This document shows positions 1 to 43,714 of a DNA stretch of 64,000 nt, one piece after another. The stretch is from positions 1,206,001-1,270,000 of the forward strand of contig NZ_JBBKBA010000001.1 of the NCBI RefSeq assembly GCF_038404985.1, written 5' to 3'. Position 1 is the first letter of the stretch. Each line of letters starts with the position of its first letter. The notes beneath the pieces are model-generated. The model did not search any database. It was not told the origin of the DNA and worked only from the letters and a program-made list of their open reading frames with translations. Position numbers and translations under genes: made by a program. This DNA is from Ferrovibrio sp. MS7. Lineage in GTDB: Bacteria; Pseudomonadota; Alphaproteobacteria; Ferrovibrionales; Ferrovibrionaceae.

Positions 1-205
1 CCAGGGCCAGGGCTGGCGGAAAGCCGGCGCCGGTGTTGCATTTCGCCGCATTCGGCGCCGTGGTAACGGTTGGGTAAGATCGAACCGGAATACTCCCTGC
101 ACAACCTCGGCGTTGATTCCGGGGGCCTGGGCATGGCCCGGGCGATTCCGTCATTCCCGATGGGATGGCATGATGAATGCGGTGTCAGGGTAGGACAGGA
201 CAGGC
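1..205. other. Upstream region of the GT41 locus, no gene seen
   Basis: No convincing reading frame lies here. The stretch holds the 5' flank of the large glycosyltransferase gene, a small GGCCTGGGCATGGCCCGGG-like partial palindrome near 124-142, and a CCGTCATTCCCG fragment near 148-159 that resembles the ends of the dispersed palindromic repeats found elsewhere in the window. A purine-rich AGGACAGG just before the ATG at 206 can serve as ribosome binding site. I could not pick a convincing promoter. Confidence 0.4.
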
Positions 206-3200
206 ATGGCCAAGGCGGCGGCAGGCGGGGTGGTGACGGCACAGGCGGTGGTTGAGGCAGCGGTGGCTGCCTTCCAGCGCGGGGCTTATGAGGAAACCGA
301 GAAGCTCTGCCGCGTGCTGCTGAATGCCGCGCCGAATGATCCGGCGGCCTTGCAATTGCTTGGCCTTGCCGCTTTTCGCCGCGGCCAGTTGATTGATGCC
401 GAGGCGACCCTGGCCAAGGCGGCCGCCAATGCCAAGACCTCGCCGGAAATCCAGGCCAACCACGCCGCCGTGCTGCGGGCGCTGGGGCGGCTGAAGGATG
501 CCGAGGCGGCCAACCGCCGCGCCATTGCGCTGAAAGAGGATTTCCCCGAGGGGCACCAGAATCTCGGCAACACGCTGCGCGATCTCGGCCGCCATGCCGA
601 GGCCGAAGTCGCCTTCCGCCGTGCCGTCGAGCTGAAGCCGAATTTTTCCGATGCCTGGCTCAGCCTCGGCCGCCTGCTGCAACTGGTCGGCCGTCTCGCC
701 GATTCGGAAGTGGCATTCCGCAAGGTGATCGAGCTGAAGCCGGATTTCGCCGATGTGCACAGCGATCTCGGCAATTCGCTGATGGGCCTGGACCGTCTGA
801 CGGAAGCCGAGGCGTCTTTCCGCCAGGCGCTGGCACTGAAGCCGAACAGCCATGAGGCATCGGTCAATCTCGCCGCCCTGCTGCTGCGTGCCGGTCGCCC
901 GAACGATGCCGAAATCTTCGCCCGCCGTGCCCTGGCGCTGAAGCCCGATCTGCATCAGGGCTTCAACAATCTCGCCATCGCGCTGGAGGACCAGGGCCGC
1001 CTGGATGAAGCCTCCGGCGTGTTCCGCCAGGTGCTGAAGCTGAAGCCGGATTATGCCTCCGGCCATAGCAGCCTGCTGTTCTGCCTCAATTACCGCCACG
1101 ATCTTTCCGCCGAGGAAATCGCCGAGGAATACCGCACCTGGGACAAGACCCACGCGAGGCCTTTGCTGCCGCGTCCGCTGCGCCATGCCAACAGCCCGGA
1201 AGCCGGTCGCAAGCTGAAGATCGGCTATGTCTCGCCGGATTTCCGCCAGCATGCCGTTGCGTTGTTCTTCGAACCGGTACTGGAAGCGCATGACCGCGAG
1301 CAGGTCGAGATCTATCTCTATGGCGAAGTCAGCAATCCCGATGCGGTGACACAGCGGCTGAAATCCAAGGCCGATCACTGGCGCAGTACGGTGGGCCTGA
1401 GCGACGACCGCATGGCGGCGCTGATCCGCCAGGATGGCATCGATGTACTGATCGATCTTGCCGGGCACACCGCCGGCAACCGTCTACTGGTTTTCGCGCG
1501 CAAGCCGGCGCCGGTGCAGTTCAGCTACTTGATCGGCCATGGCACCACCACGGGCCTGTCCGCCATCGACGGTTTCATTTCCGATGACTTCATGGTGCCG
1601 GAAGGCTTCGAGCATCTGTTCTCGGAAAAGATCATCCGCATCCCGCGCTCGCCACTGGTCTACCGGCCGCCGGAGCATATGCCCGATGTCGGTCCGCTAC
1701 CGGCGAAGCAGTGTGGCAAGCTGCGGTTCGGCTGTTTCAGCCGCACCGTGCGCATCAACGAAGATGTCATCGCCATCTGGGCTGAATTGCTCAACCGCAT
1801 CCCGGATGCCACGCTGGTGCTTAATTCGAAGCCTTTCGCGGAAAAGTTCACGCGCCAGATGTTCGAGGAGCGTTTCGCGACGCACGGTATCGGGCCGGAG
1901 CGGCTGGAACTGATCTATACCCAACCGCAGCCCAAGACCTGGGCGCATTACAACGAAATCGATATTGCGCTGGATCCGTTCCCGCATAATGCTGGCACCA
2001 CCACCATCGAGGCGCTCTGGATGGGCGTGCCGGTGTTGAGCCTGGCGGCCAGGCCGTCGGTGGGGCGCTTCGGCGCCTCGATCCTCGGCGCGCTCGGCAT
2101 GAGCGACTGGGTGGCGGCCGATCCGGACGAGTATCTCGATATCGCCGAACGCTGGGCCAAGGACATCGATGGCCTGGCCAAGCTGCGGGCTGGCCTGCGC
2201 GACCGCTTCGAGGCTTCGGCGATGCGCGATGCGCCGGGCCTGGCGCGTGCCATCGAAACCGCCTACCGCCAGCTCTGGAACGATTGGTGCGAAAGCCGCG
2301 CGCTCGCCGGCACCGAGCCACCGGAAGCCGAGCGGCCACTGACCTATTCCGATGTCGTCGCCGCCTTCAATGTCGGTGACCGCGAACAGGCCCGCCGCAT
2401 CTGCGCCGCCCTGCTGGAGCAACAGCCAGACAATGCCGATGCGCTGCAGGCGATGGGCGTGCTGTGCTGCGACGTGAAGGATTATCCGGCGGCGATGAAA
2501 TGGCTGTCGCGCGCCGTAGCGATCAATCCGAATTTGCCGGAATACTGGTCCTCGCTCGGCGTCGTTGCCCGCGCCATGAAACTGCATGGCGATGCGGAGA
2601 ATTTCTACCGCAAGGCCATTGCGCTGCGGCCCATTTTTGCCGAGGCCTACAACAATCTCGGCAATGCGCTGCGCGATCAGGGCAAGCTGGTGGAAGCCGA
2701 GGAGGCCTTGCGCAAGGCCATCGAGCAGAAGCCGGATTTCGAGGATGCCATGGTCAATCTTGGCCTGGTGCTGCTCGCCCGCGAACGTTTCGACGATGCC
2801 GAAGTGGTGCTGCGCAAGGTGCTGGCGCTGAAGCCGGAGCGACCGGATATTCACGATGCCCTGGCGATCATGCTGATGCGTCGTGGCCGGCTCTCGGAAG
2901 CCGAGGAATTTGCCCGCTCGTCGTTGCGCCTGCGGCCCGATCATCCGGCCACGCTCGGCACGCTCGGCGTGGTGCTGGAAGACCAGGCACGCCATGACGA
3001 AGCGCTGGCGGCCCTGCGCCGCGCCGTCACCATCGCGCCCGGTGATCTCGCCGTTTCCTCCAGCCTGCTATTCTGCCAGAACTACCGCCCCGGTGCGACG
3101 GCAGAGGAAATCTTCGAGGAATACAAGCGTTGGGACGACCGCCACGGCAAGCCGCATCTGCCCAATCCGCTACGCCATGACAATGATCCGAACCCGAACC

Positions 3201-6200
3201 GCAAGCTGAAGATCGGCTATGTCTCGCCCGATCTGCGCCAGCATGTGGTGTCGCTGTTCTTCGAGCCAGTGCTGTCGGTGCATGATCGCGGCAAGTTCGA
3301 AATCTTCCTCTATGGCGAAGTGCCGAATCCGGATGCGATGACCACGCGCTTTCAGAAGATGGCTGATCACTGGCGCAGCACGGTGGGCAAGAGCGACGAT
3401 GAAGTCGCCAACATGATCCGCGCCGATGGCATCGACATCCTGATTGACCTGGCCGGCCACACGGCGGGCAACCGCCTCACTATGTTCGCGCGCAAGCCGG
3501 CGCCGGTGCAGTTCACCTATCTGATCGGCCATGGCACCACCACCGGCCTCAGTGCCATCGATGGCTTCCTGGTCGATGCCGCCATGGTGCCGGAAGGCTA
3601 TGATCATCTGTTCGCCGAGAAGGTGGTGCGCCTGCCGCGTTCGCCGCTCTGCTACATGGCGCCGCCGGCGATGCCGCTGGTGGCCCCATTGCCGGCGCTG
3701 AAAAAAGGCAAGAAGAAAAAGCCTGTCGTCACCTTCGGCTGTTTCAGCCGCACGGTGCGCATGAATGACGAGGTGATCGAGGTCTGGTCGCGGATTCTGA
3801 ATGAGATTCCGAATGCGCGCCTGGTGCTGAATTCCAAGCCCTTCACCGATGAGCCGACGCGCAAGCTGTTTCTCGACCGTTTCGCAGCCCATGGCGTCGA
3901 GCCGGAACGGCTCGACCTGATCTTCACCAACCCGCAGCCGCGCACCTGGGACTACTACGGCAATATCGATATCGCGCTGGACCCGTTCCCGCATAATGCC
4001 GGCACCACCACCATCGAAGCTTTGTGGATGGGCGTGCCGGTCCTAAGTCTGGCTGGCCGGCCCTCGGTGGGCCGTTTCGGCGCCTCGATCCTCGGCGCGC
4101 TCGGCATGGATGACTGGGTGGCGCAGAACCACGACGAATACGTCGCGATTGCCAAGAAATGGGCCAACGACCTGCCGGCCCTGGCGGAGCTGCGGCGCAA
4201 TCTGCGCGGCACATTCGAAAAGTCGCCGATGCGCGATGGCGTTTCGCTCACCCGCGCCATCGAACAGGCCTATATCCAGTTCTGGCATGACTGGTGCGCC
4301 AGCCAGGGCGCCAAGTCTGCCGTGCCGGCGGTTGCCAAGCCGGCGGCGACGCCGGCCCAGGAAGCTGCTGCCAAGGCGCAAGCCCTGCTGGATGCGGCGA
4401 TCCGGGCGTTCCAGTCCGGGCAATTGCCGCAGGCCGAGCAGGCTGCCGTGGCTTTGCTCGCCCTGGCACCGAAAAATGCCGATGCCTTGCATATCCTCGG
4501 TCTGATCGCCTATCGCCGCCGCGACTGGCAGAAAGCCGCCGATCTGATCGGCGAAGCGGTGAAGCAGCTGCCGGACATGGCGGAATTGCGCTGGAACCGC
4601 GCCGGTGCGCTGCGCCAGCTTGGCCGCCTCAAGGAAGCCGAAGCCGAATGCCGCAAGGCGGTGGCGCTGAAGCCGGATTCGGCGGAAGCGCGCAACAACC
4701 TGGCCAACACGCTCAAGGATCTCGGCAAGCTCGATGAATCCGAGCAGGAATTCCGCGAAGCGGTGCGGCTCAGGCCGAACTATCCCCATGGCTGGGCCAA
4801 TCTCGGCAACACGCTGTTCGCCATGGGCCGCTTTGTCGAGGCCGAGGAAGCCTGCCGCAAATCCATTGCGCTGGAAGCGCGCAATCCGGATGCCCATAAC
4901 AATCTCGGCAATGCCCTGCTCGGCCAGGAGCGGCTGGACGAGGCCGCGGAATCCTTCCGTGCCGCACTGGCGATCAATCCGGACTATGTGCTCAGCCATT
5001 CCAACCTGCTGTTCTGCTCGAACTACCGTGCCGATCTCACGGCGGAAGAGATCTATGCCGAATACCGGCGCTGGGATGAGCGTTTCGGCAAGCCGAAGCT
5101 GCCGAACCCGTTGCAGCATGCCAATGCCCGCGAGCCGGAACGACGGCTGAAGGTCGGCTATGTCTCGCCGGATTTCCGCAATCATGCGGTGGCGATGTTC
5201 TTCGAGCCGCTGCTGGCCTCGCGCGACAAGGCGGCTTTCGAGATTTACCTCTATGGCGAGGTGCCGACGCCGGATGCGATCACCGAGCGGCTGAAATCGC
5301 AGGCCGATCACTGGCGCGGCACTGTGGGCAAGGGCGATGACGATGTGGCGGCGATGATCCGCGCCGATGGCATCGACATCCTGGTCGATCTGGCCGGCCA
5401 TACGGCGGGCAACCGGCTCGGCGTGTTCACGCGCAAGCCGGCGCCGGTGCAGTTCAGCTACCTGATCGGCCAGGGCTATACCACCGGCCTGTCGGCGGTG
5501 GATGGCTTCTTCTCCGATGATTACATGGTGCCGCAGGGCTTCGAGCACCTGTTCTCGGAGCGCATCGTGCGGCTTGGCCGCTCGCCCCTGGTCTACCGCC
5601 CACCGGAAGCAATGCCGGAAGTGGGGCCGCTGCCGGCCTTGCGCAACGGCCATGTCACCTTCGGCAGTTTCAGCCGCACCGTGCGCCTGAACGAGAAGGT
5701 GATTGCCCTGTGGTCTCGGCTGCTGAAGCGCGTGCCGGATTCGCGCCTGGTGCTGAATTCCAAACCCTTCGCCGAGGCTGCGACGCGGGATCTGTTCCAG
5801 CAGCGCTTCGATGCCCATGGCATCACACCGGAACGGTTGGAGCTGATCTACACCTTCCCGCAGACCAAGACCTGGGCGCATTACAACGAGATCGACATTG
5901 CGCTGGATCCGTTCCCGCATAATGCCGGCACCACAACCATTGAGGCGTTGTGGATGGGTGTGCCGGTATTGAGCAAGGCAGACCGGCCTTCGGTAGGCCG
6001 CTTCGGTGCCTCGATCCTTGGCGCGTTGGAAATGCAGGATTGGGTCACCGAGGATGAGGCCGCCTATATTGAGATCGGAGCCCGCTGGGCCGGCAATCTC
6101 GAGGCTTTGGCGCAGCTCCGCGCCGGCCTGCGGCCGCGTTTCGAAGCCTCGCCGATGCGCGACGGGCCCGGCCTGGCGAAGGCCATTGAAGCCGGCTATC

Positions 6201-6232
6201 GCCAGCTCTGGCGGGAGTGGTGCGGCGGATGA
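206..6232 (+). CDS. Triple-fused TPR / GT41 (SPINDLY-type O-GlcNAc transferase-like) glycosyltransferase, 2008 aa
   Basis: Three complete TPR plus GT41 units in one chain. Unit 1 has TPRs at about residues 5-320 and a catalytic region at 336-700. Unit 2 has TPRs from about 711 and catalysis from 1000. An Ala/Pro-rich linker at about 1365-1395 leads to unit 3, with TPRs from about 1395 and catalysis from 1647. Each unit carries the GYVSPD-type motif with the base-position His (H349, H1013, H1660) and the nucleotide-binding HNAGTTTIEALWMGVPV block. The Lys that contacts the UDP diphosphate in OGT (human K842) aligns by eye with Arg in all three (R516, R1185, R1827). Such enzymes move a sugar from a nucleotide sugar to Ser/Thr of protein targets in the cytoplasm. 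The acceptor here is unknown; flagellin or another surface protein is a guess. The usual family length is 550-750 residues, so the fusion is odd. The ATG at 206 follows AGGACAGG. Confidence 0.9.
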   Translation: MAKAAAGGVVTAQAVVEAAVAAFQRGAYEETEKLCRVLLNAAPNDPAALQLLGLAAFRRGQLIDAEATLAKAAANAKTSPEIQANHAAVLRALGRLKDAEAANRRAIALKEDFPEGHQNLGNTLRDLGRHAEAEVAFRRAVELKPNFSDAWLSLGRLLQLVGRLADSEVAFRKVIELKPDFADVHSDLGNSLMGLDRLTEAEASFRQALALKPNSHEASVNLAALLLRAGRPNDAEIFARRALALKPDLHQGFNNLAIALEDQGRLDEASGVFRQVLKLKPDYASGHSSLLFCLNYRHDLSAEEIAEEYRTWDKTHARPLLPRPLRHANSPEAGRKLKIGYVSPDFRQHAVALFFEPVLEAHDREQVEIYLYGEVSNPDAVTQRLKSKADHWRSTVGLSDDRMAALIRQDGIDVLIDLAGHTAGNRLLVFARKPAPVQFSYLIGHGTTTGLSAIDGFISDDFMVPEGFEHLFSEKIIRIPRSPLVYRPPEHMPDVGPLPAKQCGKLRFGCFSRTVRINEDVIAIWAELLNRIPDATLVLNSKPFAEKFTRQMFEERFATHGIGPERLELIYTQPQPKTWAHYNEIDIALDPFPHNAGTTTIEALWMGVPVLSLAARPSVGRFGASILGALGMSDWVAADPDEYLDIAERWAKDIDGLAKLRAGLRDRFEASAMRDAPGLARAIETAYRQLWNDWCESRALAGTEPPEAERPLTYSDVVAAFNVGDREQARRICAALLEQQPDNADALQAMGVLCCDVKDYPAAMKWLSRAVAINPNLPEYWSSLGVVARAMKLHGDAENFYRKAIALRPIFAEAYNNLGNALRDQGKLVEAEEALRKAIEQKPDFEDAMVNLGLVLLARERFDDAEVVLRKVLALKPERPDIHDALAIMLMRRGRLSEAEEFARSSLRLRPDHPATLGTLGVVLEDQARHDEALAALRRAVTIAPGDLAVSSSLLFCQNYRPGATAEEIFEEYKRWDDRHGKPHLPNPLRHDNDPNPNRKLKIGYVSPDLRQHVVSLFFEPVLSVHDRGKFEIFLYGEVPNPDAMTTRFQKMADHWRSTVGKSDDEVANMIRADGIDILIDLAGHTAGNRLTMFARKPAPVQFTYLIGHGTTTGLSAIDGFLVDAAMVPEGYDHLFAEKVVRLPRSPLCYMAPPAMPLVAPLPALKKGKKKKPVVTFGCFSRTVRMNDEVIEVWSRILNEIPNARLVLNSKPFTDEPTRKLFLDRFAAHGVEPERLDLIFTNPQPRTWDYYGNIDIALDPFPHNAGTTTIEALWMGVPVLSLAGRPSVGRFGASILGALGMDDWVAQNHDEYVAIAKKWANDLPALAELRRNLRGTFEKSPMRDGVSLTRAIEQAYIQFWHDWCASQGAKSAVPAVAKPAATPAQEAAAKAQALLDAAIRAFQSGQLPQAEQAAVALLALAPKNADALHILGLIAYRRRDWQKAADLIGEAVKQLPDMAELRWNRAGALRQLGRLKEAEAECRKAVALKPDSAEARNNLANTLKDLGKLDESEQEFREAVRLRPNYPHGWANLGNTLFAMGRFVEAEEACRKSIALEARNPDAHNNLGNALLGQERLDEAAESFRAALAINPDYVLSHSNLLFCSNYRADLTAEEIYAEYRRWDERFGKPKLPNPLQHANAREPERRLKVGYVSPDFRNHAVAMFFEPLLASRDKAAFEIYLYGEVPTPDAITERLKSQADHWRGTVGKGDDDVAAMIRADGIDILVDLAGHTAGNRLGVFTRKPAPVQFSYLIGQGYTTGLSAVDGFFSDDYMVPQGFEHLFSERIVRLGRSPLVYRPPEAMPEVGPLPALRNGHVTFGSFSRTVRLNEKVIALWSRLLKRVPDSRLVLNSKPFAEAATRDLFQQRFDAHGITPERLELIYTFPQTKTWAHYNEIDIALDPFPHNAGTTTIEALWMGVPVLSKADRPSVGRFGASILGALEMQDWVTEDEAAYIEIGARWAGNLEALAQLRAGLRPRFEASPMRDGPGLAKAIEAGYRQLWREWCGG

Positions 6233-8016
6233 CATCGCCGGGCGCCAGCACGGGCGCCGATATCGGCGCATTGCTGCAGGCGTCGCTGGCTGCGGCCAAG
6301 GCGGGCGATCTCGACCGCTGCTTCGCTTTAGCCAAGCAGGTGCTGCGGCTGGATCCGGCGCATCGCGATGCGTTGCGCCTGGCCGCGCTCTCGGCGGTAC
6401 AGCGTTATAACTGGCCGATAGCCACCCGCTACCTGCAGCAGTATCTGCAGTTTTATCCCAATGATGCCGGCATGCTGGTGCATCTCACCAATGTGATGGT
6501 GAATAGCGGCGATGCGGCTGAACTTGACAGCGTGTTCCGTGCCGCCTTGGCGGCCTCGCCGCCTGGGCCGAAACTATGGCAGCGCCTGGTCTATGGCCTG
6601 ATGAGCGCCAACCGCACCGGTGATGCCCGGCGCTATGCCGAGGAAGCGCAGGCGCTATTTCCGGCCTTGCCGGATTTCGAGAGCGCGCTGGCCATAATCC
6701 TGGTGCGCGAAGGCCGCATGGATGAGGCCCGCGAGGCGTTGCGCAAAGTGGTCGAACGCTATCCGCATCTGGCGGTGCCGCATAGCAACCTGCTGTTCTG
6801 CCTCAACTACGACATGACGCTGACGCCGGAACAGCTTTTTGCCGAATACCAGCGCTACGATGAACGGCATGGCCGGCCATATCTGCCGCAGCCCTTGCAG
6901 CATGGCAACAGCCGCGATCCGGCACGACGACTGAAGGTTGGCTATGTCTCCGCCGATTTCTGCCGTCATGTGGTGCCGATGTTCTTCGAGCCGCTGCTGC
7001 GTGGCCATGACCGAGAGGCGGTGGGGGTGTATCTCTATGCCGAAGTATCCGTGCCAGACCAAGTAAGCCAGCGGCTGCGCGAACAGGCGGATCATTGGCG
7101 GGTCATAGTCGGCAAGAGCGACGATGACGTGGCAGCGATGATCCGAACCGACGGCATCGACATTCTGGTCGATCTTTCCGGCCATACGGCAGGCAACCGG
7201 CTGGGCGTGTTTGCACGCAAGCCGGCGCCGGTGCAGTTCAGCTATCTCATCGGGGCCGGCTATACCACCGGGCTTTCCGCTATCGACGGTTTCTTCGCCG
7301 ATGCCGAGATGGTGCCGCCGGGATATGAGCATCTGTTTTCGGAAAGAATTATGCGGCTTGGCCGCTCGCCGCTGGCCTATCAGCCACCCGATGATGTGCC
7401 GGCTATCGGGCCACTGCCGGCCTTGCGCAATGGCCATGTCACCTTCGGCTGCTTCAGCCGAGCGGTGCGGATCAACGACCGCGTCGTCGCGCTCTGGGCG
7501 CAATTGCTGCAGCACGTGCCAGCTTCCCGCCTGGTGCTGAACAACCGGCCCTTTGTCGATGCCGCGACGCGGCAGTTTTTTGCCGAACGCTTCGCTGCCC
7601 ATGGCATCGCGGCGGAACGGCTGGACCTGATCTTCACCTCGCCGCAGGCCAAGACCTGGGAATATTACAACGAGATCGATATCGCGCTCGATCCATTCCC
7701 GCATAATGCCGGCACCACCACGATTGAAGCCTTGTGGATGGGGGTGCCGGTGTTGAGCCGCTCGGATCGGCCATCGGTTGGCCGTTTTGGTGCCTCGATC
7801 CTCGGTGCGCTCGGCATGAGCGACTGGGTGGCGCCTGATGATGCCGGTTTCATTGCAGCGGGGATCGCCAAGGCCGGCGATCTTGCGGCGCTGGCGCAAC
7901 TTCGCGCCGGCTTGCGTCAGCGTTTTGAAGCATCGCCGATGCGCGATGGTGCCGGGCTGGCCCGCGCTATAGAAGCCGGCTATCGCCAGCTCTGGCGCGA
8001 ATGGTGTGCCGGATGA
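6229..8016 (+). CDS. TPR / GT41 O-GlcNAc transferase-like protein (fourth unit)
   Basis: A stand-alone paralogue of the fused protein just upstream. About 230 residues of degenerate TPR helices precede a GT41 catalytic region from residue 234, with His247 in the GYVSADF block, Arg414 where OGT has its diphosphate-binding Lys, and the HNAGTTTIEALWMGVPV block near residue 490. The ATG at 6229 overlaps the upstream stop as ATGA, so I prefer it to the in-frame GTG at 6217; translation is probably coupled. The chain is 595 residues. The likely role is protein glycosylation in the cytoplasm with the neighbouring units. Substrate is not visible from sequence. Confidence 0.88.
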   Translation: MTSPGASTGADIGALLQASLAAAKAGDLDRCFALAKQVLRLDPAHRDALRLAALSAVQRYNWPIATRYLQQYLQFYPNDAGMLVHLTNVMVNSGDAAELDSVFRAALAASPPGPKLWQRLVYGLMSANRTGDARRYAEEAQALFPALPDFESALAIILVREGRMDEAREALRKVVERYPHLAVPHSNLLFCLNYDMTLTPEQLFAEYQRYDERHGRPYLPQPLQHGNSRDPARRLKVGYVSADFCRHVVPMFFEPLLRGHDREAVGVYLYAEVSVPDQVSQRLREQADHWRVIVGKSDDDVAAMIRTDGIDILVDLSGHTAGNRLGVFARKPAPVQFSYLIGAGYTTGLSAIDGFFADAEMVPPGYEHLFSERIMRLGRSPLAYQPPDDVPAIGPLPALRNGHVTFGCFSRAVRINDRVVALWAQLLQHVPASRLVLNNRPFVDAATRQFFAERFAAHGIAAERLDLIFTSPQAKTWEYYNEIDIALDPFPHNAGTTTIEALWMGVPVLSRSDRPSVGRFGASILGALGMSDWVAPDDAGFIAAGIAKAGDLAALAQLRAGLRQRFEASPMRDGAGLARAIEAGYRQLWREWCAG

Positions 8017-9653
8017 CGGAAAAGACGCTTGCCGAAGCCGCGGCGGCGCTCGAGGGCGGCGACAATGATCTGGCCTTCCAGCTTGCCAAGGCGGTACTGC
8101 GGGTGGCGCCAGCTACAGTCGCGGCCCTGCGCCTGGCCGGATTGGCTGCGATGCGGAAGGGCGTCTGGCCGGTGGCATTGCGCTATTTTGATCAGGCGCT
8201 AGCGCTGGTGCCGGCGGATGCGGAGCTTGCCCGTCTGCGCGATGCCTGCCGCGACAAGGCCGGCGATCTGGCGGTGCCAACCGTGAAGCAAGAGGCCGCG
8301 CCGCCGCCGATCCGCCTGGTCAATTTGTTGCTTGCCCAGGAAAAGCTACCGCAGGCGGAAAAGCTGCTGCGGCAGATGCTGGTGTTGCAGCCGGAAGACT
8401 CCTCGGCGCATTCCAGCCTGTTGTTCTGCACCAATTACCGCATGGATCTTACGCCGGAGCAGATTTATGCCGAATACCACCGCTGGGATGAAGTGCATGG
8501 TCGGCCACGCCTGCCGAAGCCATTGGCGCATGACAACAAGCCGGAACCCGGGCGGCGCCTGAAGCTCGGCTATGTCTCGCCGGATTTCCGCCGTCATGCC
8601 GTCGCGCTGTTTTTCGAGCCGCTGCTGGCCGCCCATGACCGCGTGTCTTTCGAGATCTATCTCTACAGCGAAGTGCAGAAGCCGGACCACATCACCGAGC
8701 GGCTGAAGGCTCAGGCCGATCACTGGCGCAGCACAGTGGGTTTGAATGACGCCGCCGTGGCGGCCATGATCCGCGCTGATGGCATTGATGTGCTGGTTGA
8801 CCTTGCCGGTCATACCGGCGGCAACCGGCTGCTAACCTTCGCGCGCAAGCCGGCACCGGTGCAGTTCAGTTATCTGATCGGCGCTGGCTGCACCACCGGG
8901 CTTTCCGCCATCGATGGTTTCTTCGCCGACGATGCCATGGTGCCGCCTGGGCGCGAAAATCTTTTCTCCGAACGCGTGATGCGACTTGGCCGCGTGCCGC
9001 TGGCCTATCGTCCGCCCGAAGGTATGGCGGAGGTCGGCCCGCTGCCGGCGTTGCGCAACGGCTATGTCACGTTCGGCCATTTCGGCCGCACGGTACGGCT
9101 GAATGAAAGCGTGGTGGCGGCCTGGGCCGCATTGCTGCAGGCGGTGCCGGATGCGCGGCTGATGCTGAATGCCAAGACCTTCCTGGATGAGGGTATACGA
9201 CAGGATTTCAGCCAGCGCTTCGCCACCCATGGCATCGCGCCGGAGCGGCTCAGCCTGGTCTATACCCACCCGCAGACCGCCACCTGGGCGGCCTATAATC
9301 AGATCGATATCGCGCTGGACCCGTTTCCGCATAATGCCGGCACCACCACCATCGAGGCCCTGTGGATGGGGGTGCCGGTGGTCAGCATGGCCGCCCGTCC
9401 GCCGCTGGGGCGTTTCGGCGCCAGTATTCTGGGCGCGCTCGGCATGGGCGATTGGGTGGCCGAGGACAGGACTGGCTATCTCGGGATCGCCACCCGCTGG
9501 GCGAATGATCTCGAAGCGCTGGCCAGGATCCGTGCCGGATTGCGACCGCGCTTCGAAGCCTCGGTCCTGCGCGACGCGCCCGGGCTGGTGCAGGCCATGG
9601 AGGCCGGCTACCGCCAGCTCTGGCGTGAATGGTGTGCGTCAGCCGGCGCCTGA
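8013..9653 (+). CDS. TPR / GT41 O-GlcNAc transferase-like protein (fifth unit)
   Basis: The fifth GT41 unit in the row and the one with the shortest N-terminal region: about 180 residues, with only one or two recognisable TPRs, before catalysis begins at residue 182. His195 and Arg362 occupy the same positions as in the sister units, and the HNAGTTTIEALWMGVPV block is intact. The start ATG at 8013 overlaps the previous stop as ATGA; an in-frame ATG at 8001 is less likely. The chain is 546 residues. The stop at 9651-9653 directly abuts the stop of the convergent transporter gene (TGATCA). Function is inferred as for the other units. Confidence 0.87.
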   Translation: MTEKTLAEAAAALEGGDNDLAFQLAKAVLRVAPATVAALRLAGLAAMRKGVWPVALRYFDQALALVPADAELARLRDACRDKAGDLAVPTVKQEAAPPPIRLVNLLLAQEKLPQAEKLLRQMLVLQPEDSSAHSSLLFCTNYRMDLTPEQIYAEYHRWDEVHGRPRLPKPLAHDNKPEPGRRLKLGYVSPDFRRHAVALFFEPLLAAHDRVSFEIYLYSEVQKPDHITERLKAQADHWRSTVGLNDAAVAAMIRADGIDVLVDLAGHTGGNRLLTFARKPAPVQFSYLIGAGCTTGLSAIDGFFADDAMVPPGRENLFSERVMRLGRVPLAYRPPEGMAEVGPLPALRNGYVTFGHFGRTVRLNESVVAAWAALLQAVPDARLMLNAKTFLDEGIRQDFSQRFATHGIAPERLSLVYTHPQTATWAAYNQIDIALDPFPHNAGTTTIEALWMGVPVVSMAARPPLGRFGASILGALGMGDWVAEDRTGYLGIATRWANDLEALARIRAGLRPRFEASVLRDAPGLVQAMEAGYRQLWREWCASAGA

Positions 9654-12899: not shown

Positions 12900-14576
12900 T
12901 CACTTCCCCAGAAACGGCAGCTTGAGGCCCTTTTCCTCGGCGCATTGCACGGCGATGTCGTAGCCGGCATCGGCATGGCGCATCACGCCGGTGGCGGGAT
13001 CGTTCCACAGCACGCGCTCCAGACGACGCGCCGCGCCCGCCGTGCCATCGGCCACGATCACCACGCCGGCATGCTGCGAATAGCCGATGCCGACGCCGCC
13101 GCCATGATGCAGCGACACCCAGGTGGCACCCGATGCGGTGTTGAGCAGGGCGTTCAGCAGCGGCCAGTCGGAGACCGCATCCGAGCCATCCTTCATCGCT
13201 TCGGTTTCGCGGTTCGGGCTCGCCACCGAGCCGGAATCGAGATGGTCACGGCCGATCACGATCGGGCCTTTCAGTTCGCCCTTGGCCACCATCTCGTTGA
13301 AGGCGAGGCCAAGGCGATGGCGCTGGCCGAGGCCGACCCAGCAGATGCGCGCCGGCAAGCCCTGGAAGCTGATGCGCTGCCGCGCCATGTCGAGCCAGTT
13401 ATGCAGGTGCGGATCGTCCGGGATCAGCTCCTTCACCTTGGCATCGGTCTTGTAGATATCCTCCGGGTCGCCTGAGAGCGCTACCCAGCGGAACGGGCCA
13501 ATGCCACGGCAGAACAATGGCCGGATATAGGCCGGCACGAAGCCGGGGAAATCGAAGGCTTCCGCGACGCCGACTTCCTTGGCCATCTGGCGGATATTGT
13601 TGCCGTAGTCGAAAGTCGGGATGCCTTGCGCCTTGAAGGCCAGCATGGCGCGCACATGCGCCGCCATGGACTCTTTCGCGGCCCGCGCCACGCCTTCCGG
13701 GTCGCTCAGCTTGGCTTCTTCCCACTTCGCCAGGCTCCAGCCGGCCGGCAGGTAGCCGTTCACCGGGTCATGGGCGCTGGTCTGGTCGGTGACGGCATCG
13801 GGGCGGATGCCGCGCTTCAGCATTTCAGGCAGAATCTCGGCGGCATTGCCGAGCAGGCCGATGGAGATTGCCCTGCCGTCGCGCTTGGCTTCTTCCAGCA
13901 TGGCCATGGCTTCATCCAGCGTCTTGGCCTGCTTGTCGAGATAGCGCGTGCGCAGCCGCATCTCGATGCGCGAGGGCTGGCATTCGATGGCGAGGATCGA
14001 GGCACCAGCCATGGTGGCAGCGAGCGCCTGGGCGCCGCCCATGCCGCCGAGGCCAGCGGTGAGAATCCAGCGGCCCTTGAGATTGCCGCCGTAATGCTGG
14101 CGGCCCATCTCGACGAAGGTTTCGTAAGTGCCCTGCACGATGCCCTGGCTGCCGATATAGATCCAGGAGCCGGCGGTCATCTGGCCATACATCATCAGGC
14201 CGGCGCGGTCGAGCTCGTGGAACTTCTCCCAGGTGCCCCAATGCGGCACCAGGTTCGAATTGGCGATCAGCACGCGCGGCGCATCCTCATGGGTGCGGAA
14301 CACGCCAACGGGTTTGCCTGATTGCACCAGCAGCGTCTCCTCCGGCCCCAGCGTCTTCAAAGCCTGCTCGATCTGGTCGAAGCTCTGCCAGTTGCGCGCG
14401 GCGCGGCCGATGCCGCCATAGACCACCAGTTCCTCCGGCTTTTCCGCGACATCGGGATCAAGGTTGTTGCGCAGCATGCGGTAGGCGGCTTCGATCTGCC
14501 AGTTCTGGGTATGCAGCGCATCGCCGTGCGGCGAGCGGATGACGCGGCTGTTGTCGCGGCGCGAGGGAGCGGACAT
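12900..14576 (-). CDS. hutU: Urocanate hydratase
   Basis: A 558-residue enzyme of histidine breakdown that hydrates urocanate to 4-imidazolone-5-propionate using tightly bound NAD+ in the cytoplasm. Family landmarks include [11 protein letters not shown] near the start, the Rossmann-type [17 protein letters not shown], and the signature [12 protein letters not shown] with the conserved Cys412. ATG 14576 is preceded by GAGGCCTCCC; an in-frame ATG at 14588 sits two bases after the hutC stop and is less well placed. hutC lies directly upstream. No hutH, hutI or hutG appears in the window, so the pathway is split in this genome. Confidence 0.96.
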
Positions 14577-14590
14577 GGGAGGCCTCATGC

Positions 14591-15337
14591 TTACAGATTG
14601 GATCGCTTCGACGTGCCGTCGGAACGGTAGGCGAAGCGGGTGGTGAAGCGGTGGCTGTTGCCGGGATATAGCAGCGTGGCGCTGGACACCACGACGCCGC
14701 CGGACCAGGTGCGGCGGCGCAGCCGCAGGCAGGGTTCGTTATCGGCCAGCCGCAGCAGGCGGCGGGTGCGGGCATCGGGCATGGCGGCTTCCACCACATG
14801 CTCGACTTCCGTCAACGGCGCCACCAGGCTCAGATGCTCGTTCGGCGTCATGCGGCTGAAATCGGCGTTCAGGTAATCCGGCGCCGCCGCCGGATTGACC
14901 CAGCGGTCTTCCAATTGCACCGGAATGCCATCGGCGGCATGCAGGATGATGGAGTGGAATACGCGGGCGCCGGTCCTGAGGCCGAGATCGCGCGCCACAT
15001 CGGCGCCGGCTTTCTCGGGCCGCAGCAGTTCCACCTTGGCGGCGTGGCGCTGGCCGCGCTCATTGATCTCGTCGGCGATATTGCGCAGCTCCACCAGATT
15101 GGCCATTGGCCGCTTTTCGGCGACGAAGGTGCCGGCACCCTGCACGCGCACGAGCAGGCCTTCATGGGTGAGTTCGCGCAAAGCACGGTTCACCGTCATG
15201 CGGCTGACCTTCAGCGTCGCCACCAGGGCGCTCTCGGAAGGCACCTGGTCGCCCGGTTTGTAGGTGCCGCTTTCGATATGGCGGACGATGAATTCCTTGA
15301 CCCGGCGATAGCGCGGGGTCGGCCCTGCACTGCTCAT
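14591..15337 (-). CDS. hutC: Histidine utilization repressor, GntR/HutC family
   Basis: A 248-residue regulator with an N-terminal winged helix (about residues 8-75, with [21 protein letters not shown]) and a C-terminal UTRA ligand domain (about 95-240). HutC proteins sense urocanate and repress hut genes. The palindrome TTGTATATACAA 20 bases upstream of its start matches the known HutC operator style, which points to autoregulation together with hutU. hutU begins within 20 bases of the hutC stop, so they are cotranscribed. Confidence 0.92.
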
Positions 15338-39405: not shown

Positions 39406-40386
39406 TTACATCCAGCCCTTTTCCTTGTAGTACTTGATGGCGCCCGGATGCAGCGGCGCCGAGAGGCCGTCCTTGATCATGTTCTTCGGCTCCAGCACGG
39501 CCAGTGCCGGATGCAGCTTCTTGAACTCGTCGAAGTTGTCGAAGGTGGCCTTCACCATCTGATAGACGGTCTCATCCGCAACCTTGGCCGAGGAAACCAC
39601 GGTGGCGAGCACGCCGTAGGTGGTGGTCGGCTGCGGGTTGTTGTTGTAGAGACCACCCGGGATCGTCGCCTTGGCGAAGAACGGGAAGTCAGCAACCAGC
39701 TTGTCCACGGCCGGGCCGGTCAGCGAGATCAGCTTGGCGCCGCAGCTCGTAGTCGGATCCTGGATGTTGGCGGAAGGGTGGCCGACGCCGTAGAAGAAGC
39801 CGTCGATCTTGTTGTCGCAGAGCGCCGGGCCATGCTCGTCGGCCTTCAGCTCGGAAGCCAGAGCGAAGTCCGAGAGCTTCCAGCCCATGGCGCCCATGAG
39901 CTGCTCGAACGAGTTCCGGGTGCCCGAACCCGGATTGCCGATGTTGAAGCGCTTGCCCTTGAAATCCTCGAACTTGGTCACGCCGGCTTCCTTGCGCGCC
40001 AGCACGGTGAACGGCTCGGGATGGATCGAGTAGACCGAGCGCAGGTCGGTGAACGCGCCGGCATCCTTGAACGCACCTTCGCCCTTCAGGCCGTAGTAAT
40101 GCACGTCAGACTGCGCCATGCCGAAATCCAGTTCGCCGGCCCGGATGGTGTTGACATTGAAGGCCGAGCCGCCGGTCGATTCCACCGAGCAGCGGATGCC
40201 GTGAGCCTTGCGATCCTTGTTAAGCAGGCGGCAGATCGCGCCGCCGGCCGCATAGTACACGCCGGTGACGCCGCCGGTGCCGATGGTGACGAATTTCTGC
40301 TGGGCGATGCCGGCGCCGGGCAGGGCGGCCAGCAAGGCAGCGGCGAGTGCGCCACCGGCCAGATGCTTGATTGAGAACGCGGTCAT
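39406..40386 (-). CDS. TAXI family TRAP transporter solute-binding protein
   Basis: A 326-residue periplasmic protein with a Sec signal ([11 protein letters not shown] then a hydrophobic Ala/Leu core, cleaved near GAGIAQQ). The TAXI pattern is clear in [25 protein letters not shown] and in [28 protein letters not shown] 40386 follows AAGGAGGGAC, an unusually strong ribosome site. The long open frame upstream to 40644 overlaps the LysR gene and is rejected. It works with the fused permease encoded just downstream. Confidence 0.93.
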
Positions 40387-40504
40387 ATTGTTGTCCCTCC
40401 TTGTTGAGATCGCGATAGGCACGCAAAACGGTGAAGAGTCGCGAGGCCGCTTACCGTCCTTCTGATAGCGGAAAGCGCATTGCCCCCGCCATGCGTATCG
40501 GTGC

Positions 40505-40533
40505 CGGCCCCATGCTCTTGTGTAATGGGGCCG
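40505..40533. terminator. Inverted repeat between LysR and TAXI genes
   Basis: CGGCCCCAT (40505-40513) and ATGGGGCCG (40525-40533) are perfect complements with an 11-base loop, 17 bases beyond the LysR stop on the minus strand. It probably ends the LysR transcript, though there is no T-run. An operator role for the TAXI promoter is the alternative. Confidence 0.45.
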
Positions 40534-40549
40534 TTCCAGAATGATTCCG

Positions 40550-41461
40550 TCAAGCCGCAGGGGCCGACAACATTGTAGCGATACTTTTCTCCGCCCAGGT
40601 AAGGGCTGCGCCGAATTGCCCGGCCAGCAGGCCCGGCGGGCCATGCTTGGGGCGCATCACCTGTACGGCGAAGGGAATCGAGGGCTGCAGGCGGCGGATC
40701 GCCACCTTGGCCGGATTGCGCGCTGCCGCCGTATACTGATCGACGATGGCTGCCCCGGCGCCCTTTTCCACCAGGGCCAGTGCCACCTGGTTGGTTTTCA
40801 CTTCCACGATCGGATCGAGTTTCACGCCGGCGAGGTTCAGCACCGCCGAAAATACCGAACCCAGCGGATCGTCGCTGCGCAGGCCGATGAAGGGCTGGCG
40901 CGTGAAGTAGTTCAGCTTTACCAGATGGGGCAGGTTTTTTTCCTGCGCCGCCGGAAAGGCGCCGAAGAAATGCCCCTGGGCCAGCGGCGCCAGTTCCAGG
41001 CCGGGATGCGGCGGGATATCGAAGCCGATGCCGATATCCACCTCCTGTGTCAGCACGGTGCGCACCAGGTCGGCATATTGCCGCGTCTCGACCTCGAAGG
41101 TCACATCCTTGTGCTTCTGGCGGAAGCGCGTGATCGCCAGCGGCACCAGTTCCAGGCACAGGGCCGGCGCCGCCGCGATGCGCAGATGGCCGCTGGAAGC
41201 CGTGCCGAGATTGCGCGCCAGCTTGCGCAGGTTCTCCAGGCCGGCGATCAGTTTCTCGCTTTCCGCCTGCAATATCAGGGCTTCCTTGGTCGGCAGCAGC
41301 CGTCCGCGCACGCGGTCGAACAGCTTGTAGCGCAACTGGTCCTCGGCGCGCAGCAGCAGCCGGGTTGCCGCCGGCTGCGAAATATTCATCAGCTTGGCTG
41401 CCGCCGTGATCGTGCCGGTCAGCATCACGGCGTGAAAGATTTCCAGATGGCGCAACTGCAT
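40550..41461 (-). CDS. LysR family transcriptional regulator
   Basis: A 303-residue regulator starting [14 protein letters not shown], with the helix-turn-helix at about residues 17-37 ([21 protein letters not shown]) and an effector domain from about 90. ATG 41461 follows GAGGGG; the in-frame ATG at 41491 lies in the palindromic promoter region. It stands between the TAXI-TRAP genes (downstream, same strand) and the divergent DadA-like gene, so either could be its target. Nested palindromes in the gap before dadA favour that gene. Confidence 0.9.
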
Positions 41462-41464
41462 CGC

Positions 41465-41509
41465 CGGACCCCTCGGTTTCGCCCATAACATAAAGGTATG
41501 GGTGGTCCG
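41465..41509. promoter_or_regulatory. Nested palindromes in the LysR / DadA-like divergent region
   Basis: An inner pair CCCATA (41482-41487) and TATGGG (41497-41502) with a nine-base spacer has the size of a LysR box. An outer pair CGGACC (41465-41470) and GGTCCG (41504-41509) surrounds it, and GGTCCG repeats at 41523-41528. The region sits just upstream of the LysR start and 116 bases before the DadA-like start, a usual arrangement for a LysR regulator acting on a divergent gene. Confidence 0.55.
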
Positions 41510-41624
41510 AGTAAACGCAGTGGTCCGGCCCGACCGTCGGGCGCATGCTCAGGCCTGCCTCCCCCGGCAGCAGCGCCCCCTCCGACAGCAACGGGCGCTG
41601 CGACATAGAAGAAGGAAATTTGCC

Positions 41625-42878
41625 ATGCATGTGCTGGTAATCGGCGCCGGCGTGATCGGCATGACCACGGCCTGGGCTTTGGCCCGCGATGGTCACCAGG
41701 TGACGGTGCTGGATGGCGGGCCGGAACCGGCCAGCGGCGCCAGCCATGCCAATGGCGCGCAGCTCAGCTATTCCTATGTCGCGCCGCTGGCCGGTCCCTC
41801 GATCTGGAAGGACCTGCCCAAGCTGCTCTGGGGCCGTGACGCGCCGGTGCGTTTCCGCGCCGGCTTCGATCTGCGGCAATACCGCTGGGGCCTGAAATTC
41901 CTTGCCGCCTGCACCGGCGCCAAAGCGCGCGGCACCACGGAGGCGTTGCTGAAATTGGCCTTCCTCAGCCGCGATGTGCTGGGCGGCGCCAAGGAACTCC
42001 GTGAAATCGAGTTCGATCATGTGCAGGCCGGCAAGCTGGTGGTCTATTCCACGCCCGAGAGTTTCGCGGCGGCCAAGGCGCAGACCGCTTTCCAGCGGAC
42101 GCTCGGCTGCAAGCAGGAGGTGCTCGATGCCCCGGCCTGCCTGGCGCTGGAGCCGGCTTTGCAAGCCATCGCGCATCGCCTGGTCGGCGGTATCTTCACG
42201 CCCGATGATGCCGCCGCCGATCCGCGCAAGCTCTGCCTCGGCCTGCTCAAGCTGCTGGAAGGCCATAACAGCGGCGTGCAGTTCCATTTCAACACACCGG
42301 TGATCCGGCTGCTGAAAGAGCAAGGCCGCCTGGTGGGGGCCGAAACCGCCAATGGCGTGTTCCGGGCCGATGCCTATGTGCTGGCCGGCGGCATCAGCAG
42401 CGTCGAGCTGGCGCGCGGTATCGGCCTCGACCTGCCGCTCTACCCGATCAAGGGCTACAGCCTGACGCTGGATGTCGCCAACGAGAATGCGGCGCCGCGC
42501 GTCAGCGTTACCGATTACGGCAACAAGGTGGTCTATGCCCGGCTGGGGCAGAAGCTGCGCGTCGCCGGCATGGCCGATATCGTCGGCAGCGACTTGAGCC
42601 TGGAGCCGGACCGCGTGGCGCAGCTTACCCGCCAGGCGGCGGAAACCTTCCCGGTTTCGCCGCAAGCGCCATTGCAGCAGCCCTGGTGCGGCCTGCGCCC
42701 GGCAACCCCGAGCGGCCGTCCGATCCTGGGCAAAAGCGGCATCGACGGCCTGTGGCTGAATGTCGGCCATGGCGCGCTCGGGCTTACGCTGGCTTTCGGC
42801 TCGGCGGCAGCCGTCGCCGCCGTGATCGGCGGCAAGCAAGCTCCGGTGTCGCTGGCCGATTTTTCGCTGCAAGCCTGA
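41625..42878 (+). CDS. FAD-dependent D-amino acid dehydrogenase/oxidase family protein (DadA-like)
   Basis: A 417-residue flavoprotein. The N-terminal dinucleotide-binding motif is GAGVIGMTTAWALARDGHQVTVLD, split as GAGVIG at residues 7-12 and a distal Asp near 30. Later blocks include GLRPATPSGRPILGKSG and NVGHGALGLTLAFGSA, typical of DadA. These enzymes oxidise D-amino acids to 2-oxo acids and ammonium at the membrane-facing cytoplasmic side. ATG 41625 follows GAAGGAA. It converges on the BKACE gene with an eight-base gap. The exact amino acid is not predictable. Confidence 0.85.
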   Translation: MHVLVIGAGVIGMTTAWALARDGHQVTVLDGGPEPASGASHANGAQLSYSYVAPLAGPSIWKDLPKLLWGRDAPVRFRAGFDLRQYRWGLKFLAACTGAKARGTTEALLKLAFLSRDVLGGAKELREIEFDHVQAGKLVVYSTPESFAAAKAQTAFQRTLGCKQEVLDAPACLALEPALQAIAHRLVGGIFTPDDAAADPRKLCLGLLKLLEGHNSGVQFHFNTPVIRLLKEQGRLVGAETANGVFRADAYVLAGGISSVELARGIGLDLPLYPIKGYSLTLDVANENAAPRVSVTDYGNKVVYARLGQKLRVAGMADIVGSDLSLEPDRVAQLTRQAAETFPVSPQAPLQQPWCGLRPATPSGRPILGKSGIDGLWLNVGHGALGLTLAFGSAAAVAAVIGGKQAPVSLADFSLQA

Positions 42879-42886
42879 CGCCTCCC

Positions 42887-43714
42887 TTAATTCAGGTCCC
42901 GCATCCAGGCGCGGGCGGCATCGGCATCGGCCGTCTGCCGCCCGGCGAAAGGTGCCCCGACACTGATCTGGCGTACCAGCGCGGCATTGTCGGGCGCCGA
43001 CGAGCCATCGGCGAGCAGGGTGTTGTTCTCGAAGCCGACGCGGGCATGGCCGCCAAGGCCGAGCGCCGTGACGGCACAGGCGCCTTCCAGCTTGCCGAAG
43101 GCGCAGACGGCGAATTCGCCCCAGGCCGGCTGCCATAGCTGCATGAACGGCAGCAGATCCGTCGGCTGCGATTGCTGCCCCGCCGTGTAGCGGCCGAGCA
43201 CGAACAGCACGAAATGCCTCTCGCCCGGCACGATGCCGCGCGCCACCAGGTCGCGGAATTTCTGCAGGTCCTCGGCGGAATAGAGGATGTATTGCAGCAG
43301 GGTGCCGGCCTTGTGCATATGCTTGAGGAAATCCGCCGCCGCCGCTTCATGGGCGGCATCGGGCACGATTTCGCGAATCCCTAAGCTGCAAGCCTCCGGC
43401 ATCAGCTCGCGCATTGCCGCGATCTGCTCCGGTGCGGCATAGATACCGGCGGCCTCGCTGGTGCATTGGATGATCAATTTGTCGCCCAGTGCTGCGCGGA
43501 TGCCGGCAATCGCCGGGCGGTAGAGTTCCGGCGCGATGGAATGGCGCCCACTCGGCTCGCGCACATGCAGGTGGATCATCGCCGCACCGGCCTCCAGGCA
43601 GGATACGGCGCAATCCACCAGTTCCGGCACGGTGAGCGGCACGGCGGCGTGATCGGCTTTCAGCTTGCGCGCGCCGTTCGGCGCCACGGCGATGAGGGCG
43701 GGGAGCATACTCAT
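42887..43714 (-). CDS. BKACE family beta-keto acid cleavage enzyme (DUF849)
   Basis: A 275-residue TIM-barrel enzyme of the 3-keto-5-aminohexanoate cleavage family. The zinc-binding HLH motif is at His48 and His50 in IHLHVREPSGRHS, and the C-terminal GLGGHARVGFENNTLL carries the conserved Glu-Asn. Family members condense a beta-keto acid with acetyl-CoA to give acetoacetate and a CoA ester. The start overlaps the aminotransferase stop as ATGA, so transamination followed by beta-keto acid cleavage is a natural pathway. The open frame to 44317 is read-through. Confidence 0.92.
   Translation of the reverse strand: MSMLPALIAVAPNGARKLKADHAAVPLTVPELVDCAVSCLEAGAAMIHLHVREPSGRHSIAPELYRPAIAGIRAALGDKLIIQCTSEAAGIYAAPEQIAAMRELMPEACSLGIREIVPDAAHEAAAADFLKHMHKAGTLLQYILYSAEDLQKFRDLVARGIVPGERHFVLFVLGRYTAGQQSQPTDLLPFMQLWQPAWGEFAVCAFGKLEGACAVTALGLGGHARVGFENNTLLADGSSAPDNAALVRQISVGAPFAGRQTADADAARAWMRDLN

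Follow-up and report, generated by a model that had tools for sequence, protein, structure and literature searches.

We describe a 64,000-nucleotide stretch of the Ferrovibrio sp. MS7 genome (hereafter the window; positions 1206001-1270000 of contig C1, in a 4.58 Mb assembly that is 99.89% complete), the left end of which carries an array of five units, or heads, each joining a tetratricopeptide repeat (TPR) region to a catalytic domain of glycosyltransferase family 41 (GT41). Just left of the window lie the genes for a type I secretion system (T1SS) and for a giant repeat protein. The features concerned are given below, in window coordinates unless contig C1 is named.

C1:1190705-1192465 (left of the window): PrtD-type T1SS ATP-binding cassette (ABC) protein, TIGR01842, 660 bits against a cut-off of 510
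C1:1192462-1193868 (left of the window): HlyD-type adaptor, TIGR01843, 381 bits against a cut-off of 209
C1:1194249-1205930 (left of the window): giant of 3893 aa, with repeats and a C-terminal RTX (repeats-in-toxin) match
1..205, no strand: stretch before the array, within the 275 bp that separate the giant gene from the array start (C1:1206206)
206..6232, plus strand: 2008-aa protein, a head-to-tail fusion of three TPR-GT41 units, from its open reading frame, PF13844 and orthologous frames
1067..2290, plus strand: GT41 catalytic domain of head 1, preceded by a TPR region of 287 aa (profile match)
3059..4300, plus strand: GT41 catalytic domain of head 2 (profile match)
5000..6223, plus strand: GT41 catalytic domain of head 3 (profile match)
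6229..8016, plus strand: head 4, a separate TPR-GT41 gene with an ATGA overlap with the preceding gene; catalytic domain at 6784-8007
8013..9653, plus strand: head 5, a separate TPR-GT41 gene with an ATGA overlap with the preceding gene; catalytic domain at 8412-9635

Translation of the open reading frames and profile searches bear out the first-pass annotation of this DNA, which had described five TPR-GT41 copies in 9.4 kb with the first three in one frame: all five units, at 206-9653, are free of stop codons, the PF13844 matches are far beyond chance (E = 4.8e-118 for the fused protein, 2.4e-34 for head 4 and 3.3e-36 for head 5), and both catalytic lobes of every head exceed the Pfam cut-off for PF13844. 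The ATGA links that it had seen between the last units lie at 6229-6232 (heads 3 and 4) and 8013-8016 (heads 4 and 5). Head 4 starts with ATG, with a further in-frame GTG at 6217, and head 5 has an additional in-frame ATG at 8001; the separateness of these two genes is that of this single assembly. The recurrent coding block, placed earlier at about 1981, 3987, 5917, 7697 and 9327, is no more than 5 bases off: each head has a single HNAGTTTIEALW, at 1985, 3992, 5918, 7702 and 9330, and between heads the 36-nt block agrees at 29-33 of its 36 positions. Heads 2-5 share 66-72% identity with head 1 in the catalytic domain, and the region preceding the catalytic domain shrinks stepwise from head 1 to head 5 (287, 256, 233, 189 and 137 aa).

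The genes to the left run in the order LpxR, ABC, HlyD adaptor and giant, and the stop codon of the giant is 275 bp ahead of the array start. The giant has a mass of 375 kDa and a pI of 4.05, is built of repeats of 46-47 aa, and consists of 16.7% Thr and 8.1% Ser, making 964 Ser/Thr residues. Its C-terminal RTX match (PF00353 at 3747-3781), together with the PrtD-type ABC and the HlyD adaptor, gives it all the marks of an RTX giant exported by a T1SS. Modelled from 12 aligned segments of this giant, a 279-aa repeat segment is predicted to be all-beta (pLDDT 91.8); the best match of this model in the PDB, 3p4g (E = 0.012, TM 0.30), is a weak hint of the beta-rolls of RTX and antifreeze proteins. 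The same genome encodes three more giants of this family, with 5359 aa (C4, ~139-155 kb), 2256 aa (C1, ~65-71 kb) and 2532 aa (C1, ~1973-1980 kb), two of which share their C-terminal end with the giant of the array. Since no T1SS pair was found beside these three within the flanks fetched, a single exporter and a single array may handle all four giants.

The fused triple is not confined to this genome. Among ten genomes of the genus (the present one, G000, included), it occurs in four: G000, G002 (L060/L020), G004 (L018) and G006 (L063+L064/L019), where the contig breaks off within head 3. The same protein is found in named records of two Ferrovibrio metagenome-assembled genomes (MAGs) and of a MAG labelled Alphaproteobacteria bacterium UBA7691. 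Five of the ten genomes have single-headed GT41 frames only, and G001, which belongs to the same species but is 72% complete, gave no GT41 match. For each of heads 1-3, dN/dS is 0.12-0.15 against L018 and L060, two references that are close to each other; these heads are under purifying selection. An assembly collapse, named by the first-pass annotation as one outcome that would undo its reading, or a false fusion can therefore be ruled out: three other assemblies have the same frame open, the one cut by its contig end included, and the dN/dS values measured lie well below 1. A tree of 24 domains, of the kind that annotation had proposed, groups all array heads in one clade (100/99), with heads 1, 2 and 3 each clustering with their own orthologs (100/100, 100/100 and 97/96) and head order preserved across species; a warning of long branches concerned the part of the tree beyond the array clade. 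The triplication and the fusion are thus older than the divergence of these species. Stepwise shortening is seen in L060 as well (285, 256 and 222 aa for heads 1-3). Heads 4 and 5 were seen in the window's genome alone; a Vut-like gene directly follows the triple in L018 and L060. The tree leaves both unplaced within the array clade (the row closest to head 4 is head 3), and they could represent either a later addition here or a loss elsewhere. L065, a 586-aa GT41 frame at the start of G006:C47, was considered as an ortholog of head 4 and rejected, as it has a SPINDLY-like pocket and 35-37% identity.

Within the genus, the array travels with the exporter and the giant. An ortholog of the ABC (79-100% identity) is found only in G000, G002, G004 and G006, and the giant family in these four and in G001. 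ABC, adaptor, giant and array are consecutive in G000, G004 and G006, and in G002 the giant is split across two contigs, one holding the ABC and the other the array. ABC ortholog, giant and fused triple are jointly absent from the remaining five genomes (G003, G005, G007, G008 and G009), where relatives of the ABC are at most 29-31% identical. Three of these array-free genomes (G003, G005 and G009; loci L077, L068 and L075) carry a single 684-aa GT41 gene flanked by giants with 'ALTTxQI'-like repeats, a second pairing of GT41 with giants in the genus, which we count in favour of a link between the two.

A similar arrangement was found in a second alphaproteobacterial lineage, G278 (locus L130 on contig C3), where a giant repeat gene, a T1SS ABC (47% identity), an adaptor (46%) and a fused GT41 protein stand in a row. 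The fusion, of 2146 aa, has the order TPR-GT41-TPR-GT41-FkbM-FkbM, with two FkbM methyltransferase domains, and the giant, in pieces of 1555 and 2404 aa, has a Ser/Thr repeat unrelated to that of the Ferrovibrio giant. Divergent from this giant are genes for a GDP-mannose 4,6-dehydratase (610 bits, cut-off 415) and a GDP-L-fucose synthase (505 bits, cut-off 500), followed on the other strand by a phosphoglucomutase/phosphomannomutase (685 bits, cut-off 600).

L168:5031-8432: predicted GDP-fucose synthesis genes of G278 (NCBIfam matches)

Head 1 of the G278 fusion has 10 of the 11 scored donor-site residues of Arabidopsis SPINDLY (SPY), a GT41 protein O-fucosyltransferase, the exception being N662, and head 2 has 9 of 11 (exceptions N662 and H728, the latter replaced by Asn), so that K665, K689, H728, Y744 and T747 are all present in head 1. 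Donor genes, pocket and acceptor agree on GDP-fucose, and G278 possibly makes a bacterial O-fucosylated giant. Further repeat giants occur near this locus (L169:13318-19299 and L168:13415-18298). On G144:C29, a contig that came up through the giant search, the end of a giant whose repeats belong to the family of ours is accompanied by an ABC and an adaptor, with two GT41 genes ~5 kb off on the other strand; both are of the Lys type described below.

Fused heads as such are more widespread. The first-pass annotation had noted that enzymes of this class usually have one catalytic domain, which holds, but the fused architecture is not unique: the search it had proposed for other proteins with several GT41 domains returned frames with at least two heads or parts of heads in five other alphaproteobacterial genera (G278, G200, G143, G407 and G151/G332). 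L082 (G151:C55) and L083 (G332:C5) are short contigs that each form one open frame from end to end, with two GT41 heads or parts in L082 and three in L083; by eye, both contain the tail of one head followed by a full head, which is of the Arg type described below, and L083 ends in the start of another. The way in which these contigs break off suggests that the multi-headed gene is longer.

The donor pocket of the array sets it apart from G278. Pocket residues were mapped onto SPY by profile alignment, with sites taken from passages of PMC9715652 and PMC10027727. The loci fetched gave 131 aligned domains, and the 128 with at least 300 positions covered were scored. At the place of SPY K665, which is K842 in human OGT (O-linked N-acetylglucosamine transferase; hOGT), 112 of the 128 domains have Lys and 16 have Arg. 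The 16 comprise the 12 scorable array heads (five here and seven orthologous) and one domain each from G151, G332, G052 and G144; they span four families, and 15 of them are R-N-H. The five heads carry R, N, T, H and G in place of the K665, K689, H728, Y744 and T747 of the SPY GDP-fucose pocket, Ala or Val at the S496 equivalent, and a second Arg at the N662 place, uniform across all five, while T748 and E752 equivalents are retained throughout. Asn and His also stand at the places of hOGT L866 and C917 (SPY K689 and Y744) and are thus neither the OGT nor the SPY residue, the R904 place being outside the scoring. Native OGT of Thermobaculum terrenum (TtOGT) is described as having a catalytic Lys, K341 (PMC4683255), where the array has Arg. 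The pocket therefore lends no support to the OGT-like, HexNAc-transferring activity that the first-pass annotation had suggested. Its uniformity in all five heads suggests a single donor. A structure model of head 1 was good in the TPR part and poor in the catalytic N-lobe, with long stretches of 317-484 below pLDDT 50.

Taken together, the array probably works in the cytoplasm as a multi-headed GT41 protein O-glycosyltransferase, its dedicated substrates being the giant RTX-type proteins exported by the adjacent T1SS. This reading takes the giant to be the acceptor, the heads to be active and the modification to precede export. TPR superhelices would hold the long Thr/Ser-rich polypeptide ahead of export, several catalytic heads with one pocket type would modify many acceptor sites in parallel, and the ABC/HlyD pair would then export the glycosylated giant. 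The heads would have arisen by tandem duplication; several species in the genus share the fused triple, and only this genome is known to have heads 4 and 5. Serial duplication into a multi-headed enzyme for an acceptor with many sites, as first proposed, agrees with the tree, with the selection values and with the giant next door; only the OGT/HexNAc part of that proposal is not supported. More tentatively, and with slightly less than even confidence, we propose that these loci represent an undescribed, recurrent 'glyco-T1SS' of Alphaproteobacteria, in which a multi-headed TPR-GT41 protein beside a T1SS densely O-glycosylates Thr/Ser-rich giants in the cytoplasm; the glycan would be O-fucose, possibly methylated, in G278, and a different sugar in Ferrovibrio, given the R-N-H pocket.

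Several observations weigh against dedication of the array to the giants. All five heads have Arg in place of an essential GT41 Lys, and their activity cannot be taken for granted. G001 has giants together with neither an ABC ortholog nor a GT41 match, and the four array-bearing genomes of the genus may represent one evolutionary gain. Three of the five fused-head lineages with readable flanks (G200, G143 and G407) have neither T1SS nor giant. Among 60 class loci (the best GT41 hit per genome, from the top-scoring 60 of 122 genomes with a hit, own genus excluded; 8 of the 60 are shorter than 10 kb at contig ends), T1SS and giant stand beside GT41 in L130 alone, and L125 has a repeat-rich frame and no T1SS. 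The 20 next-closest T1SS ABC loci yielded one weak GT41-like gene, and we rejected T1SS similarity as a predictor of GT41; G278 and G144 were part of the T1SS alignment (A2), so their top rank there is circular. At E <= 1e-15, a cut-off chosen after viewing the list, the giant family was found in 5 of 385 class genomes (G000, G006, G144, G147 and G117), with G052 sixth at 2e-13. GT41 (E <= 1e-50) was present in 4 of these 5 versus 118 of 380 others (p = 0.037, or 0.094 with the genus counted once), a weak co-occurrence at class level. A search of 40 GT41-bearing class genomes for the giant family returned a strong match in G144 alone, and the four genomes outside the genus with Arg-type domains have a strong match in G144, a weak one in G052 (2e-13) and none in G151 and G332 at 1e-8. 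Fused heads and T1SS adjacency are associated in a Fisher test (2/4 vs 0/57, p = 0.003), which is post hoc and on which we do not lean; its 57 include the multi-headed L082 and L083, and with G407 the first figure becomes 2/5.

One alternative is that the array glycosylates flagellin, as described for FlmG, a TPR plus glycosyltransferase enzyme of Caulobacter (PMC7591256), and that its adjacency to the T1SS giant is incidental. A further point against dedication to the giants comes from G052, where an Arg-type TPR-GT41 gene adjoins flagellin, a polysaccharide-biosynthesis dehydratase and flagellar-like genes (L110:5970-13371), and G000 itself has three matches to the flagellin N-terminal domain PF00669. 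These lie far from the array (C1:1714115, 2412188 and 2584816), however, the genome has another, separate TPR-GT41 gene near C1:605 kb, and across the genus the array varies together with T1SS and giant. FlmG is moreover reported to require pseudaminic acid (PMC7591256). A nonulosonic-acid donor, which the extra Arg and the flagellin neighbour in G052 had prompted us to consider, was rejected for this genome, as NeuB (PF03102) was not found in G000; nor was it found in the less complete G002 (83%) and G004 (87%) or in G052, so that 4 of the 8 genomes with Arg-type domains lack a match and the other four (G006, G151, G332 and G144) have one. We consider flagellin glycosylation by the array unlikely.

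A second alternative, that the heads are pseudo-glycosyltransferases acting as non-catalytic TPR scaffolds or chaperones for the giant, seems just as improbable. It draws on the change from Lys to Arg in all five heads and on the loss of SPY activity in K665A and K665M, given in the cited passages of PMC9715652 and PMC10027727, which do not include a change to Arg. Conversely, T748 and E752 equivalents are retained and the Arg at the N662 place is uniform, heads 1-3 are strongly constrained, and the Arg recurs in 16 of the 128 domains scored, spread over four families, which speaks for a functional variant and not for decay. Least probable of all is mere gene-dosage amplification, in which tandem duplicates raise the enzyme level for general intracellular substrates: tandem arrays of at least four separate GT41 genes do occur in 4 of the 60 class loci (L112 with 6, L126 with 4, L148 with 6 and L157 with 7) and fused heads exist without a T1SS, but synteny with a T1SS and a giant is found in the genus and separately in G278, and both head order and the stepwise shortening before heads 1-3 are retained across species.

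The proposed dedication of the array to exported giants has partial parallels in known systems. Arabidopsis SPY is the best PDB sequence match of the 2008-aa protein (7y4i, 3.6e-103) and the best Foldseek match of the head-1 model, whose catalytic N-lobe is poor; like the array, it combines a TPR superhelix with a GT41 domain, but it has one head and differs at the pocket residues given above. The top profile match is TtOGT (5djs, 6.1e-99), which, like Xanthomonas XcOGT, is a bacterial TPR-GT41 enzyme with, unlike the array, one head. We know of no T1SS partner for either. HMW1C/NGT enzymes of Haemophilus and Actinobacillus have one head and are not known to carry a TPR array, and they match the array weakly in profile searches (5e-7 to 8e-6); the NCBIfam model of HMW1C-like NGT (NF049992, cut-off 1000) gave 75 bits with the fused protein, 21 bits with head 5 and no match with head 4. 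As described in PMC3012730 and PMC10507012, they resemble the array as cytoplasmic GT41 enzymes acting on a large secreted adhesin, and differ in transferring N-linked hexose and in serving two-partner secretion (PMC3012730). FlmG, compared by description only, is likewise a soluble TPR plus glycosyltransferase enzyme that acts on an exported surface protein before export, but it has one head, a flagellin substrate and a pseudaminic acid donor (PMC7591256). Enterobacterial flagellin glycosylation islands have GT41-methyltransferase proteins near an exported substrate, as in G278; that substrate is flagellin, not a T1SS giant, and the passages of PMC4875605 that describe them make no mention of multi-headed GT41. 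The parts of the system are thus of known kinds, whereas titles and abstract openings among the matches listed from the open-licence PMC literature gave no account of GT41 with T1SS giants, of multi-headed GT41, or of this combination and pocket.

Elsewhere in the window, 12900-15337 carries urocanase and a GntR/UTRA regulator, probably an ordinary histidine utilisation locus. On the minus strand, a 917-aa open frame at 40383-43136 gave no match in Pfam and is overlapped by plus-strand frames; it may not be the real gene.

If our reading is correct, the many orphan bacterial enzymes resembling OGT and SPINDLY would be linked to a concrete class of substrates, the exported giant repeat proteins, and testable predictions of donor and acceptor would follow, GDP-fucose in G278 foremost among them. 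A chain with several active heads would offer a possible route to hundreds of modified sites on one polypeptide before export, and the Lys-to-Arg pocket raises the question of whether this Lys is essential throughout GT41.

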